From assembly GCA_963969365.1 (NCBI GenBank), contig OZ017746.1, positions 1,426,001-1,490,000 on the forward strand: a stretch of 64,000 nucleotides of DNA, in the 5' to 3' direction. The translations under genes and the position numbers were made by a program. Numbering within the stretch: the first letter of the stretch is position 1; every line of letters starts with the position of its first letter. Under the pieces are notes generated by a model, which worked only from the letters and a program-made list of their open reading frames with translations, was not told the origin of the DNA and did no database searches. Below are positions 26,282 through 33,563 of the stretch, piece after piece. This stretch comes from Asterochloris sp. CNOR1 (taxonomy: Eukaryota; Chlorophyta; Trebouxiophyceae; Trebouxiales; Trebouxiaceae).

Positions 26282-29200
26282 TCATTGGTAGATGAACTTG
26301 CCCACATATCCAGCCGATTTAGGGAAGAACTCGCCCCCATCCTTCTCCAGCTGGGCGGGGGTCTTGGGCAGTGCCACCTGCATATGCATGCCTTGTTTGC
26401 AGAGGCCACAAGTGCGCGTGTGGAGCCAGGACTGCAGCAAGCTTACAAGCCATCAGCTTCCCCAGTGCCCACAATTGTACCAGCCAGCAATGCCAGCCAC
26501 ATACAGGCAGATGACTGATGCTGGTCAATGAAGCAATAACATTGACCAGCACCAGTGATACGCCTGTGCATTGCAGATGCTCCTGACAAAGAGCAGCAAG
26601 CATGAGCAAGCAGTGTGAACGTTAGGCAACACAGTATGAGGCATGACAGCATGTTGGAATGCTTACCCCAATGATCGAGTCACGGGTCACCAAGGCCTGC
26701 AGCTTGTCCTCAGACCAGCCCTCGGTGCCCTCGGGGCGCAGGGGGATGCTCAGGAACCTGCAGCCAGCATGCCTCACGTCACAGGGAATATCTTTGCATG
26801 CATGATGGCCAGATGCTGGTTCCAATGTATGTCACGGGAGTTCCCTGTGGATGCACGTGAAGGCTGTCGAAGTAAGCACCAGCCTTGTGCTTGCTTAAGG
26901 AAAAGGTCTTGATCAAGCCAAGACAAGGATTCTTGGACTGCACCATGTAGCACTGGCTACCAGGCAGCAGATGCAGAAGGTTTGAAGCGTGTCTGGCATG
27001 CACTTTCTCGCCTGGAGTCAGCGTTGGAGTCCATGACGTGGATGGTGGTGCTCTCAGGCAGCGTGGTGCCAAACTCCTTCAGCACCGCACGGGGGTCGCG
27101 GACGCTGCGTGCACGGAAGCTCCTCGCTTTGTACCTGCAGCAGGCAGTGAATTGGGCTATTGAGCTAAGCAGCTGCTGATCAAAGAAGCAGCAGCAGCTG
27201 GCAGGCAGAGACAGGTGTGGCTCATGCAAAAGCAGGGGCAACATGGGTGATAGAGAGCAAGCCCACAAGCACAGCATCATGGCAAGAGAACTTCTCAAGC
27301 GCTGGCGGCACAAAATGAGCAGTTCTCTCTGTCGGCAGACAGGATGCATGGGTCAGCACAGCTTACCAGGAGGGGGCCATGCCCAGCACAGAGATGGGGT
27401 AGCAAGAGCACAGTGTGCACACCTGCAGCAGCAGCAAAGTTGCTGAAGCACAGTGGCCAGGTTCATGCTTTCAAGCGCAGAGGTGACAGGCGCCAATGTA
27501 CAGGTCTGGTACATGTACATGCGGGTGTGCCCAGCCGATGGCTCCCAGGTATGCCAGAAGTGCCCCATGCTGGACTCACCAACAGGTGGTGCAGGCCAGG
27601 CTTGTTCTCCACCACCTTCAGGAGGATGCCGGACAGCTGGGCGTTGGCTTCTGCAGGGGCAAGGCAAGCAGCATGTGCCAAAGCGGGCTCAGGGCAGATT
27701 GGAGAAGTTGCAGCCGAGGGTGCGGACTGCTATTGCATACAGGTCTGGCAGGCATGAAGTCAGGCTGCATCCCACAACATCGACGTGGTTGTATGACGCT
27801 ATGAGCAGATATCTGGGCAGCCCTCTGGGCAAAAGGGTGGCAGCTGCACAAGGTGTCAGCTCAGCAGCATGAGCGTACATGGCCACCACACGTGCTGTAG
27901 GCTGTCAGCTGAGACTTGAGAAGAGCAAAGCACAAGATGCCTCTCACCAGTGACGCCGCCGTACGGCTTCCACCCCTCTGCAGAGATGCCCATCTCCTTG
28001 ATGGCGGACACACCGTCCGCAAGCAGGCGCTTCTTGTACTCAGGGTCTGTCCACGCCCGTGCCACTACGCGAGGCCCCAGGCCTGCAAGTCAGACCGAGC
28101 ATGCAATCCTGAAGACACCAAGAGAAGCTGGCAACTGGGCGGAATCGGACAGCACTGACAGCAGCAGAATGCACCAGCGAGTACAGAGAGAGTCTGAAGG
28201 GCCAGACGCATGGTTGTGCCAGCCTGCATACGCACAGTGGCCACGCTGCTGGCACCCGAATTCAGGCACCATTGCTAAAATCTATGCAACCCCATCACAC
28301 AAGTCCTGATAGCTCACCACGGCTCCCATAGCTCTCCAACTCCTCAATCATGGCCGTCATGTCCTCTGGCTTTACAACCTTCTTGCCATACAGCACCTGC
28401 AAAGTTTGAATGCAGCAGACCTTTAGTGGTGTAGCAGACTTGAGAGGGGTGAAGCTCTGGAGGTAAGCACATCATGCCAGTCAGCACCTATTGAGCTGCA
28501 GAGGGGAGTCGCAGTTGCAAACTGTTGGCGGGCTAAAGATATGCAGAGGTGTGTGCCGTCGGGGGATGTGCTGACAGCAAAGTTGTTGGGCAAGTGCAAA
28601 ACATACGTGCTGGGCACACCGCTCTCCTTGCAGCCCCTGTCAGGGGTCTGTAAGTGACCTGGCTGCACAGCGCCGCCAGACTGCACAGCGCTGACGGACT
28701 GCATGAGCGGGTCAGTCGCAAGTAACAACCTTGAGGATGGCGTTGATGAAGCGTGCCTTCTCAGCGTCTTCCCCTTCAGCATCGACCGCCTTCTGCTCGA
28801 CCTGCAACAGGTGTCAGGGGGTGAGGCAGTTCACCTCTTTCGGTTGCATCATGAAGGTACCACACCCATGCCGCATGCATGCATGCAGGCCATGCTGCAC
28901 TTGTTGCAAGACAGCTAGCTGTGTGTACGCTTGGAGTCTACAGCAGGGGCTGGCCTACCTGGCCGATGAACAGAGCCCACTGGCATGCTAGCAGGCAGCC
29001 CTACCTCCAGGCGCTCATCATGGGTATGCTCGTGGCCATTGTGGCTGTGGGTGGTCGTCTTGCCTGCATTGTAACCCTCTGGCATGCCCTTGCGGGTGGC
29101 CTGCAGCCCGCATGAAAGAAGTCAAGCACAGCAACAGGATGATTGTGGGTGGATGCCTGCCCCTCTCATGGGCCAACTCGGGTGCCACTGCAAGAGGCAT

Positions 29201-31633
29201 GGCCAGATGCAACAAGCATGCAGGACATCAGAGACAATCGGTGCGGAGCCCAACCTGCTGCTTTTTGAACTCAGCCTCGCTGGAGGGGTCCAGCCATGAT
29301 TGCCAGATCTGCATGGACAGTCACTTGAGGGTTGCAGCATTGGGCGTGGTCTCGCGATTATGCGCAGCTGACAGCTGTGAACCGCACCGCACCCAAGCAG
29401 CAGCAATTCACAGCTGCAACAAGGCAGCAACCCCAGCAATGCAGCAGGTCTAAGCGTGGCAAACTGACAGCTACATGCCCCCAACCACCTCTGCTCACCT
29501 CAATCTCCAGCGTGTCAGAGTCCGGGCCTGCAGCCAGGGACACGTTGCAGGTGAACAGCAGCCTCAAACCAAAGCTGTAGCGTCAAGAGTGCAGCACTGC
29601 TGCAAATCAGCGCGCCGCAGCGCAGGCTTACCTGAGTAGCCTTCCCACAAATCTCTTTGGAAGAATTTGACGCGGTACAGGGGCTGGTGGGGCCCAGTCA
29701 CATAGTGGAAGGCATCGATCTCCGGAGTCTCGAGGTACCCCAGGCAGTCCTGCAGGGGTGCAGGGGATGCGGCTGCCCTCAGCACCGGCATACAGCCATG
29801 TTGCACAAAGCACGCTGCCACGCAGATGCCGCAGCCACTGCTGCTGCTGAGTGTCCGCGCTGATGCCAAGCCCACTAAATGGAATTGTTGCAGCGCCCTC
29901 ACCATGTCGATGATGCCAACCACGCCGAACAGGTAGCCTGGAGTTCGCAGGTGGGGCTTGCGGTAGCGCACGGCAGCATCCTCCGTCTTGCAGCGAACAT
30001 AGTCCCCCTTCTTGAACCTGTAAAAGGCCAGAGCTTGGTTACCAGCGACTGTCACATCAACAGATTTTCGGTGTTCAGCAGCGTGTGCATGGTGAAGAGG
30101 CCGTGAGGGGAACTTGTGTCTGCCTGAGTTTGCAGGGAGGGCAAGACAGGGCTGAGTCAGTTCCCATCAGTCAGAGCCACGACACAGGTCAAGATGGGGC
30201 AGGGAGTGCCCGACTGGCACTGTCATGCTATCGGCTGATGACGGTCTGCTGGAAGACAGAAGCTGCAACAGCCTCATGAAAGGACAGCTACGAATCGAAG
30301 GACTGAATGGCAGTTAGTGAGCAGGCAAGCAGTGGAACACCACCAAGTCTGAGCGCATGCTGTGGGCAGTGCACCTGTCAAAACCTCCCACTGCTCTCAC
30401 ACAAGCATGCCACATGGCAGAGGCATTGCTCACATGATCTCGGGCTCCTTCGTGGGCAGGCCCAATGCTTCGTCCAGCTCGGGCTGGGTGATGGTGCCGC
30501 GCTCAATCATGGTCGTCGCGATGGCGGAGGCCCACTTCTCATCTGTATGCAGCAGAAGGTGGAGGATGAACAGGCTGTGCCTGCAAACTGACTGGCCGAA
30601 CAAATGGCTTCAGCCTTAGTGTACCTTGACCAGGCCGATGTCTGAGTTCAGGTACACACATGCACGCTTGCATGGGGTGTCTCAATCTGCTCAAATGCAG
30701 AGCCTCTGGACGTGCAAGGCATGCTCATTACTGCAAGGGTGCCTGCCCAGCATGGTACCAATAGCTGTGCAGGCACCCCATTGTCCACCCATGGTTGCAC
30801 AGCGCCCCCCGAGCAGGCCAGCACTTCCAGCCAGATGTCATCTAGCAAGGGGCACAATTCTCGGCGACTAAACAACCGACAGCATGAGCCCAGGTTTGGC
30901 ACACCATCCATGTAGGGGCACAAGTTGCAGAGGGGGGTTGATTTTCAGCAGCGGCTCACAGTATGTCTTTGTGGCAAAGGCTGTGGTTGGGAGATATTCG
31001 ATGGCGCGACGCATCTCCCCACTCTTCACGAAGCCGCCTCCCACCAGCAGGCAGGAGAGAGCATGCACCTGGTACCTGCAGGGGAGGGGCTGACAGTGTC
31101 TGAGCCAGTGATGTCGTGCGGGCAGACCGACTGGGGACCCGTGGGGGGCCTTAGGTCACACCACTTGATGATCTGAGGCACAGAATAGAAAGCTGTGCTG
31201 TGCAGCCAGCATGTAGCGCATGGGCTCAACTGACATAGCAAGCAGCAACACGGGTGAAGCAAGGAGGCAGGCTCACTCCCAGTATTTGACAGGCTTCTGA
31301 GTTTTCTTGATGGCCAGGCTGAGAGGAGCGTCCACACTGTCGAGGTTGCCTGGCACAGCAAAATCATCGCCTGCACACAGCTGCACTGATATGAGCTGGC
31401 TGCACTGACCCCTTGAAGAGCCACAATCTGCATCATGCTCGAAGATGAAGCTGCGGACCTGGTGTGAAGCCCATGCCGCCCACATCCTGTAGGAGGGGAG
31501 GCTATTCCGATTAGCATGTGCACAAGCCAGGCATGGCAAGGGTTTCCTGCTGCAAGCACTTGTTTAGCCCAAAAGCTACATGCTGAGGATTGTAGGGCAC
31601 CTGAGCATTGTCGATGCCAAACGCTGGCGCCAT
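26282..31633 (-). CDS. beta-alpha fused cobalt-type nitrile hydratase
   Basis: Nitrile hydratase hydrates nitriles (R-CN) to amides at a low-spin Co(III) or Fe(III) centre. Eighteen exons close in phase to 504 residues: 31601-31633, 31459-31486, 31277-31370, 30960-31075, 30434-30542, 29903-30017, 29632-29749, 29499-29527, 29255-29308, 29005-29100, 28730-28801, 28318-28396, 27948-28082, 27580-27650, 27367-27422, 27012-27134, 26667-26757, 26282-26377. Beta half (about 1-232): DVGGMGF, then EMRRAIEYLP, YYEKWASAIATTMIERG, the SH3-like barrel FKKGDYVRCK with HLRTPGY (family H-x-R-x-P-x-Y), and YRVKFFQRDLWEGYSG. A His-rich linker (HSHNGHEHTHDE, about residues 250-261) follows. Alpha half: PRVVARAWTDPEYKKRLLAD, the metal claw VCTLCSCYP (Co-type Thr), RAVLKEFG, and LRPEGTEGWSEDKLQALVTR. 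In bacteria alpha and beta are separate genes; the fused beta-first order with a His-rich linker is known from Monosiga-type eukaryotic enzymes. One intron (26758-27011) has a GC donor. No obvious organelle-targeting peptide is visible. Confidence 0.93.
29005..29100 (-). other. His-rich inter-subunit linker exon
   Basis: A single 32-codon exon carries exactly the join between the beta and alpha halves of the nitrile hydratase, reading ..MPEGYNAGKTTT then HSHNGHEHTHDERLE. Five His occur in twelve residues. It may bind or hand over Co2+. The linker coincides with one phase-0/phase-0 exon, consistent with a former subunit boundary. Confidence 0.85.
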
Positions 31634-32124
31634 AACTGCTGAACTGAAGAAAGCGCCCCTTGATTGGAAGCCCCGAGACTGAAAGGACTGATATACGGTG
31701 ACAATCCAGCAAGGAGTACCCGATGTACAATGTGCTGCCGAGAGTAAAGCTGTGCCGAGGGTAAGCACTGAATGGATATCTGGGTTTAGAATCCAGCTTG
31801 ACCGGTCAATTACTGCTTGTGCCAACTTGAAATCATCAGCATATCCTGGTCCAGTGAGGGACGGAGTACTTCATGTTAACATTGCCAGAATAACACATTC
31901 TCAAGTCACAAACGCAGGGCAGCCCTGTAAGGGGTCAGGACCCCGCCACAGGCATCGGATGCAGCAAGCTGGGTCCTGTCAACGAAGAGCACAGTTGAGG
32001 AGAAGTCAAGTCAGCAGAACCACATGGCACCCTGCTTGTCTCAGGAGATCGCTTGCAGACACCACAAGCTGTGCACAGGGTCAGCACAGCCGCAGGACAG
32101 AAGTCCACATGTGCAGCAGCGACC
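31634..32124 (-). promoter_or_regulatory. upstream region of the nitrile hydratase gene
   Basis: About 490 bases between the last recognisable CobW residue and the hydratase ATG. On the minus strand a TATA-like gtatatcag lies about 57-65 bases before the ATG, and a ccaatcaa box lies about 30 bases before it. This is a proposed promoter only; part of the stretch may be decayed CobW 3' sequence. Confidence 0.3.
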
Positions 32125-33563
32125 TGCAGTGAACCACTGCCAGACCAGCAGGGGTCGGGCAGCCACCCAGAAGAACCCTTGCTGCGCAGCGTGGGCGGCA
32201 GCGCACCACCCTTCACAGCTGCCTGCCACAGGCGCTCAGGGTGGAAGGGGCGGTCAGTGTGGAAGACAAAGCTGGCGATGCCGAGCTGCTAGGACTCTGG
32301 GGTGTGGGGTGCAGTGCCAGCGAGCTCCTGCTGCCACCCTCCGGCTGCAGCAGCGGGCTCCAGGCTGAACCTGCAAAGGCGGGGAGGAATTATCGGTGAA
32401 CGGCATGAGCACTCGGCAAAGTTGTGAGGCTGACCAGGTCCCCATGCTGCATGGTGGTGCTGCCGCTGTGCATGCTCCCCGCTTCCTTGTTTGGTGCAAA
32501 AGGGGGCAGCCCCAGTCTGGTCTGCCTAGCACCAGGGCTTCAGCAACCCACTCAACCTGAGCGTTGCGCAGCCTGCTGCCACATGGTTCAGTGCTGCTGA
32601 GCATCTGTTATAACAAAACAACATTGTGGCAATGGCGCAGATACCCTCTTCTACACAGCCATGGCTGGCGGTGCTGCCAACTGCCAAGAAGCATACAGCG
32701 ATGGCATGGACGCTCTCACGTGCGCATGCCTGAGAGAGTGCCTCTCCACAGTGCCCTTGTCAGACTTGGCTTCGAAGAGCCATGCAATCTGCCAGGGAGC
32801 AGGGTGTCTTACCTGTAGGTGGAGAGGACCTCATGCAGTAACACATCGCAGTGCTGGCGGGGCGCGACGCGGGCCGCAGGGTTCAGGCGTAGCAGCAGCG
32901 CCTTGGTGGTGGCAGCCTGCTCCGGCCCCACCAGGTTGGTCTTGTTCAGCATGATCACATGGGCAAACTCCACCTAAGGGCAGCTGCACAGCTGCTGTGA
33001 CTGTGCCGCCTGACACCTTGCAGCCCATATGCTTGCAGGAGGCCAGGCTCCTGTGACTGCTCTCCACAGGTATACTGGTGCAATGCTGAGGTTCTGCGGC
33101 ACCAAGCTGTGCCACTGATGGTATACCACCACCTGCCTGGCGGCCAGCAGGCCTGCCAGGCAGCGGATTTGCTGCACACTGACTGCCATGCCGCGATCCT
33201 GCAACGTGGCGCTGCCGGCCATCACTGTGGCAGGCGCTGGCGTCGGCTATGGTGGCCTGCAGCGCAGCACACCAGCCGGTACAGGCGGGCACTCTTGGAG
33301 ACATGGGACAACGCTGTGGCCCATAGATTATGGTAGAAGCCAGACTTGAAGAGTCCATGCCGAACAGGGGCGGCTGCTGACTCCAGCTGCTGGCTCCAGC
33401 AAAATAGGCTGCCCCAGCAGCATGACCTCTGAGCAGCCCCTCAGGCACAGCTCACCATGGACTCGACGGCAGTCACCTGTACCAGGGTAGCGCTCCCCTC
33501 GGCCCTCTGCGTGGAAGGCTGCTGCCACAGTCATGGCCTCACTGACGCCCGCAGGACATGTGG
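32125..33563 (-). pseudogene. decayed CobW/P47K-type G3E GTPase (nitrile hydratase activator-like)
   Basis: G3E GTPases of the CobW/YciC/P47K group insert or chaperone Co, Zn or Fe, and several are nitrile hydratase activators. Matches in order on the minus strand: GVSEAMTVAAAFHAEG (about 33545, family STGISEP), DRGMAVSVQQIRCLAGLLA (about 33195), VEFAHVIMLNKTNLVGPEQA (about 32970, G4 motif NKxD as NKTN), LNPAARVAPRQHCDVLLHE, and the CobW C-terminal domain GGWQQELAG..APHTPES / QLGIASFVFHTDRPFHPERL / LRSKG.FFWVAARPLLVWQW (32128-32370). Damage: no N-terminal P-loop (GxxGxGKT) or CxCC metal motif exists, because recognisable sequence stops at the duplication edge near 33563. An in-frame TAG lies between PES and QLG (about 32290), and a one-base loss shifts the frame at RSKG|FFW (about 32190). 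It is a host-type gene in decay, immediately upstream of the hydratase on the same strand. Confidence 0.75.

Follow-up and report, generated by a model that had tools for sequence, protein, structure and literature searches.

In cobalt-type nitrile hydratases (NHases), nitriles (R-CN) are hydrated to amides by a Co(III) ion whose cysteine ligands are oxidised. NHases fused into one chain are known from several eukaryotic supergroups, and a deep split between 'eukaryotic' and 'prokaryotic' enzymes in the 2012 tree was taken as a sign that the enzyme was present in the last eukaryotic ancestor (PMC3323583, Marron 2012). That survey called a histidine-rich linker an opisthokont character, yet noted Ser-His repeats in the rhizarian Bigelowiella natans; its archaeplastid record was Ricinus, suspected to be a bacterial contaminant, and words starting with 'thiocyanate' are absent from its main text (PMC3323583). 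With regard to green algae, 'several nitrile hydratases' were reported in Coccomyxa viridis, called typical of lichen photobionts and missing from C. pringsheimii (PMC10693582); the main text of a source cited there (PMC11126685) has no word beginning with 'nitrile'. Among bacteria, Streptomyces canus possesses a three-subunit cobalt NHase, AnhD-AnhE-AnhA, which its authors called similar to eukaryotic NHase; it hydrates acetamiprid, thiacloprid and benzonitrile, not indole-3-acetonitrile, and takes up cobalt without an activator, the betaN subunit being the cobalt chaperone (PMC7329996). An engineered beta-alpha fusion of the P. putida enzyme was active and more stable (PMC4709657), and according to a review, metal incorporation into the Monosiga enzyme does not require its His17 linker (PMC7193024, citing Yang 2018). 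In this study, we investigated a stretch of 64,000 nucleotides from contig OZ017746.1, taken as a whole and hereafter called the window (positions count from its first letter), and a beta-alpha fused NHase gene on its minus strand.

We consider, with a probability of roughly three in four, that this gene encodes a single-chain cobalt-type NHase of the eukaryotic beta-alpha fusion kind, that it is a nuclear gene of a green alga, and that its parts come from the bacterial three-gene class. The first-pass annotation had proposed 18 exons and 17 introns on the minus strand, and the splice table confirmed this model with its coordinates: 1515 bases join into 504 residues and a stop codon, with no internal stop in the reading frame (Table 1). 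Intron boundaries are GT-AG in 16 of the 17 introns and GC-AG in intron 16 (GCGAGA); the acceptors read TGCAG in 14/17 and TACAG in 3/17, the introns are 88 to 417 bases long, and 28 stops in total lie within them when one frame is read per intron. Exons 15 and 16 meet at 27367/27134 (GT-AG, phase 2), and the two short 5' exons were placed solely by the DVGGM motif and splice sites. All 17 introns are predicted from these signals to be spliced, and the joined gene model is far beyond chance. No second NHase copy was found in the 64-kb window. The gene might also be an intact-looking but inactive or unexpressed copy, that is, a young pseudogene, as residue Ile393 is unusual and a CobW-like stretch upstream on the same strand looks broken; nevertheless, across 504 codons and 34 splice sites the reading frame is unbroken and stop-free and every site residue is kept, and the GC content at third codon positions (GC3) is 0.77, so that we regard such a copy as very unlikely.

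Along the protein, Pfam recognised NHase_beta_N (residues 43-117, 4.6e-13), NHase_beta_C (residues 125-221, 1.1e-11) and NHase_alpha (residues 280-475, 1.1e-70) in this order, all three over their curated cut-offs. The NHase hallmarks noticed at first, namely DVGGM, HLRTPGY, TEGWSE..LVTRD and VCTLCSCYP, are all present, and the top PDB match of the joined protein was 4ob1_A, an NHase alpha chain (6.4e-55). The CTLCSC cobalt claw corresponds to Cys385, Cys388 and Cys390. Of the two catalytic arginines of the beta part, Arg74 is matched by Arg in every one of the 120 bacterial rows used for comparison, a set reduced from 183 open reading frames (ORFs), and Arg151 in 119/120, and Tyr90 and Trp94 are common to 118/120 and 112/120 rows. 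Judging from these residues, the algal protein most likely hydrates nitriles.

Relatives were sought among prokaryotic, viral, plasmid and PDB sequences. The alignment-based scan of genome contigs was a sample in which at least 587 loci were confirmed and the best 80 kept; among these best 80, a profile search gave the three-gene order betaN-betaC-alpha in 41, beta-alpha in 14, and alpha-beta or unclear order in 25 (among these 25 are L032 and L075, both truncated where their contigs end, and L032 was left unclassified), and the 11 lowest E-values all belonged to three-gene loci. Best-match loci from 1,728 genomes in five phyla, 164 of which gave a match, together with three plasmid loci enlarged the set to 192 loci with 183 alpha-bearing ORFs (at least 150 bits; some loci overlap). 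None of these 183 prokaryotic ORFs holds betaN-betaC-alpha in one frame. Locus L170 (1141-2115), which belongs to the same phylum as the Dehalococcoidia genome G001, carries a betaN-alpha fusion only, in one frame of 325 residues with Thr after CYP. Apparent beta fusions in some loci were dropped, being weak overlapping beta matches or, in the 455-residue alpha ORF of a Halobacteriales metagenome-assembled genome (L017, 4595-5959), a stretch at the C-terminus with faint similarity to beta (33 bits). In L009 about 0.8 kb lies between the betaN and betaC ORFs, and in L021 two betaN-like ORFs precede alpha. Counted by ORF, the residue after CYP is Arg in 71/74 three-gene and Trp in 48/52 alpha-beta ORFs, and it is mixed in the 39 beta-alpha ORFs (22 Trp, 13 Arg, 4 other). 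By aligned row it is Trp in 50/56 classic rows and Arg in 53/56 three-gene and 8/8 beta-alpha-R rows; the labels followed gene order and, for beta-alpha rows, this very residue, so that they already contain part of what the column shows. A [DNH]-x-GG motif stands ahead of the betaN domain in 59/65 three-gene, 71/78 classic and 9/12 beta-alpha-R loci.

The gene was at first compared with ordinary bacterial two-gene NHases; in sequence, the algal protein resembles the three-gene betaN-betaC-alpha class and not the classic two-gene enzymes. Ten-fold held-out profiles served as controls and rightly assigned 62/64 three-gene and 56/56 classic rows for beta (the two misses being L054 and L072), and 63/64 and 56/56 for alpha. 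The three-gene profile gave about 148 bits for the algal beta part and the classic profile 92 (margin about 55); for the alpha part they gave about 232 and 215 bits (margin about 17). At diagnostic columns, where a residue occurs at 80% or more in one class and at 15% or less in the other, the protein carries the classic residue at 0/15, the three-gene residue at 5/9 and the residue of the thiocyanate hydrolase (SCNase) clade at 5/43. In a concatenated alpha+beta tree, in which 80 of 121 rows were kept, a branch with support of 100/100 has on one side the classic rows plus L054 and L072, whose gene order is three-gene, and on the other the algal and the remaining three-gene rows, and in a quick tree of all 121 rows the algal protein is nested among three-gene rows. 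The approximately unbiased (AU) test on alpha+beta rejected its placement inside the main classic clade of 30 rows (p-AU 0.0009), this clade being taken without L017, L054, L072 and L163 and the groups having been named after the tree was inspected. An AU test of the algal row with the alpha-beta rows (p 0.0009) was set aside, as the alpha-beta rows form no clade by themselves. The mark of the three-gene class is three separate genes and the algal chain is single; the protein is a fused relative of this class and no member of it by gene structure.

Several points weigh against this reading. The profile and column tests share one alignment and are hence dependent; the algal row joins the three-gene side at its root (91/69), whereby 'classic plus algal' also makes up one side of a branch, and it is long-branched (1.3-1.5). 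With alpha alone, joining the algal row to the classic group was not rejected (p-AU 0.346), and joining it to the SCNase clade was rejected neither by the concatenated data (0.157) nor by alpha (0.296). The N-terminal GGMGFTP is closer in look to the classic GGMxGFGP than to the three-gene GGLPAGPV, and Ile393 after CYP fits neither class. Ser occupies the position which we take to be that of alpha-Gln90 of Fe-type enzymes. The protein also scored below the cut-offs of the NCBIfam NHase equivalogs TIGR01323 (222.9 against 249.85) and TIGR03888 (81.8 against 152.2), and the eukaryotic fusion NHases were set beside it by published description only.

Some of these points bear on descent from an ordinary two-gene NHase through inversion of the gene order and fusion, as was proposed for Monosiga in 2008. 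The beta-alpha order does exist in two-gene bacteria (39 beta-alpha ORFs, 13 of them with Arg after CYP, vs 52 alpha-beta), and the GGMGF motif and the alpha-only test agree with such an origin. Nevertheless, the absence of classic-diagnostic residues, the profile scores, the rejection inside the main classic clade and the short betaN-betaC linker, which in trimmed aligned domains spans 16 residues against a classic median of 42 (14-55), make this route quite unlikely; the three-gene median is 20 (4-59), and that of beta-alpha-R rows is 60.5 (30-61).

The protein may, on the other hand, be a single-chain thiocyanate hydrolase, which has the same fold and cobalt site and converts SCN- to COS and ammonia. 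Among the named families matched in PDB, SCNase gamma ranked second (2dd4_C, 1.3e-47), SCNase shares the three-gene order, and placement with its clade was not rejected, as given above. The gamma equivalog TIGR03887, in contrast, reached only 196.9 against a cut-off of 291.45, the SCNase-clade residues are mostly lacking, and the Arg after CYP of 2dd4 is Ile in the algal protein. Three-gene order alone does not mean SCNase, because no match over the SCNase cut-off was obtained in 11 genomes of relatives, and the three-subunit enzyme of S. canus is reported to hydrate nitriles (PMC7329996). We therefore regard a thiocyanate hydrolase as unlikely and retain the NHase related to the three-gene class.

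The joins of the chain are consistent with that relation. In the algal protein 32 residues separate YYEKW from Met127 (33 with Met127 included), and in bacterial betaN ORFs (n=62) the stretch following YYExW has a median length of 33 residues (19-47). The codon of Met127 is interrupted by intron 5, close to where the betaN and betaC genes of bacteria meet, and Met127 lies one residue ahead of the FKKGDYV motif; a Met precedes this motif in 29 bacterial betaC ORFs, at a distance of 1 to 5 residues in 16 of them and of up to 36 in the others. As introns come every 30 residues or so, this single coincidence is only suggestive of a trace of gene joining. The linker of exon 10 contains five histidines, and 65/87 three-gene or beta-alpha-R and 57/80 classic ORFs have at least four histidines in the 45 residues that precede alpha, a stretch that may pass some start codons. 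Because histidine-rich tails commonly precede bacterial alpha, the linker is best read as the former N-terminal tail of the alpha subunit, and its presence in the algal protein argues against a strictly opisthokont character.

From the gene anatomy, the class resemblance and the conserved site residues, we infer the following with regard to the path of fusion, cobalt, maturation, activity and substrate. The betaN, betaC and alpha parts would come from the bacterial three-gene class, in which no inversion is needed because the order is already betaN-betaC-alpha; the adjacent genes would have joined stop-to-start, the histidine-rich tail of alpha becoming the linker. Cys385, Cys388 and Cys390 would bind Co(III), two of them becoming oxidised, Arg74 and Arg151 would hold the oxidised ligands, and water would be added to R-CN to give the amide. 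A separate activator is probably not needed for cobalt loading, since betaN is the cobalt chaperone in the three-subunit S. canus enzyme (PMC7329996) and would always be at hand in a fused chain; by this analogy a self-maturing single-chain nitrile hydratase is expected. A wider proposal, which we put forward tentatively and at somewhat less than even odds, is that the eukaryotic fusion NHases as a group arose from a bacterial betaN-betaC-alpha operon fused in order, that the algal gene keeps the join in its intron 5 and alpha-tail linker, and that the deep eukaryotic/prokaryotic split of 2012 may reflect a bacterial class which the text of that paper omits.

Table 1. Positions in the window of the NHase gene, its parts and neighbouring features.
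Feature	Position	Strand	Basis or content
Whole NHase gene	26282..31633	-	start codon 31633-31631, stop codon 26284-26282; 18 exons, 504 aa; splice table and Pfam
Exons 1-5, betaN domain, residues 1-127	31633-31601, 31486-31459, 31370-31277, 31075-30960, 30542-30434 (span 30434..31633)	-	DVGGM, catalytic Arg74, YYEKW
Exons 6-9, betaC barrel domain, residues 127-232	30017-29903, 29749-29632, 29527-29499, 29308-29255 (span 29255..30017)	-	HLRTP with catalytic Arg151
Exon 10, histidine-rich linker ATRKGMPEGYNAGKTTTHSHNGHEHTHDERLE, residues 233-264	29005..29100	-	phase-0 introns on both sides
Exons 11-18, alpha domain and C-terminal tail, residues 265-504	28801-28730, 28396-28318, 28082-27948, 27650-27580, 27422-27367, 27134-27012, 26757-26667, 26377-26282 (span 26282..28801)	-	Pfam, splice table
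Exon 15, cobalt-site motif VCTLCSCYPI (Cys385, Cys388, Cys390, Ile393)	27367..27422	-	motif and alignment
CobW/COG0523 metallochaperone-like exons	32824-32973 and about 32100-32288	-	directly upstream of NHase
RPN2	about 6.1-14 kb	+	ORF profile matches
Aquaporin	19.2-19.5 kb	-	ORF profile match
EIF3I	49.7-52.7 kb	+	ORF profile matches
LytB/IspH, weak, two ORFs	63.0-64.0 kb	-	1.1e-4 and 2.2e-4, under Pfam cut-off, consecutive in profile

The neighbour map is partial, as 60 of the 1135 stop-to-stop ORFs of at least 40 residues in the window were profiled; besides the genes in Table 1, it gave a P-loop kinase, part of a histone deacetylase and a segment resembling importin-11. A hand-joined RPN2 query scored 494 bits with PDB entry 8amz, which we take to be spinach, against 397 for the best chain taken to be mammalian and 290 for those taken to be from yeast. 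IspH is part of the plastid isoprenoid pathway; a 45-residue IspH stretch searched against PDB matched no IspH, a point against our reading. Green algae favour TGTAA. This signal lies 630 bases past the NHase stop codon and occurs 59 times over both strands, with no apparent enrichment, and AATAAA is found on neither strand in the 64 kb. A green-lineage alga is the best reading of the host, for which the RPN2 scores, the weak LytB/IspH matches and the missing AATAAA speak, and the NHase gene is most likely a eukaryotic nuclear gene of a photosynthetic eukaryote, a green alga. That the family is mainly bacterial could suggest contamination or a very recent bacterial insertion. The first-pass annotation had already argued against this from the introns, and we concur: 17 introns are of spliceosomal type, exons of RPN2 and EIF3I flank the gene on both sides, the alpha identity is at most 56% to any of 137 other rows, and no relative was confirmed in phages or, by pattern scans, in IMG/VR viral contigs. 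We consider contamination or such a recent insertion hardly credible.

The CobW-like stretch adjoins the NHase gene, whose Fe-type relatives use a COG0523 activator. Its Pfam values (cobW 0.053, CobW_C 2e-4) are both under the cut-offs, and tblastn with Azospirillum CobW gave 40% over 50 residues (E 6e-5). It shows NKTN in place of NKxD, its frame apparently shifts within CobW_C, and an N-terminal half was not found by motif search and tblastn; it looks like a partial or broken gene. CobW as a metal-loading partner of the NHase was not adopted, only a C-terminal, apparently broken part being present. As a control, the P-loop pattern was searched in the ORFs of the 192 fetched loci, which have short flanks, and gave one match (L034). 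The aquaporin exon lies about 12 kb from the NHase start; for comparison, a Streptomyces plasmid stretch (L100, 3905-7677) carries a three-gene NHase after which come an aquaporin and a transporter for nickel/cobalt.

As first proposed, the window does hold a complete fused beta-alpha NHase gene in a probable green-lineage member, borne out by the Pfam domain order and the eukaryotic neighbours. The accompanying statements that such fusions occur in a few eukaryotes such as Monosiga, and that this gene extends the enzyme to a new lineage, went too far. The algal gene is a further case of already known eukaryotic fusion NHases and not the first of its kind, since fusions are reported from several supergroups (PMC3323583) and NHases from Coccomyxa viridis and lichen-associated green algae (PMC10693582). 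The listings of our literature search, which took in few subscription papers, showed no detailed account of a green-algal beta-alpha fusion NHase. The gene and the 2012 paper contradict the statement of a 2023 study that NHases and SCNases are exclusively prokaryotic (PMC10098168). With the algal gene the family gains a complete representative from the green lineage, its archaeplastid entry of 2012 having been the suspected contaminant from Ricinus. The gene also ties eukaryotic fusion NHases to the three-subunit enzymes, among them one that takes up its cobalt unaided by an activator, thereby extending the remark on similarity made for S. canus (PMC7329996). The tie predicts an easily expressed single-chain catalyst and offers a testable account of the origin of the eukaryotic gene.

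In comparison with known systems, the classic two-gene Co-type NHases (4ob1 and 3qxe, the latter presumably of P. putida) share with the algal protein the fold, the cobalt motif and the catalytic arginines, and 3qxe also has a histidine-rich alpha tail; the algal protein differs in having none of the classic-diagnostic residues and in standing outside the main classic clade. Thiocyanate hydrolase 2dd4, which we take to be that of Thiobacillus thioparus, agrees in fold family, cobalt motif and a histidine-rich tail before its alpha-like part, whereas the algal protein lacks most SCNase-clade residues, including the Arg after CYP. The cobalt NHase of S. canus has the same betaN-betaC-alpha order but is encoded by three separate genes (PMC7329996), and the sequences compared here were those of other three-gene Streptomyces loci (L024, L054 and L100). 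The eukaryotic beta-alpha fusions, as described in PMC2603476 (Foerstner 2008) and PMC3323583, match the algal gene in placing beta before alpha in one chain, in VCTLCSC, in a low-complexity linker and in having up to 17 introns; in this comparison by description, the algal gene differs in its green-lineage host.

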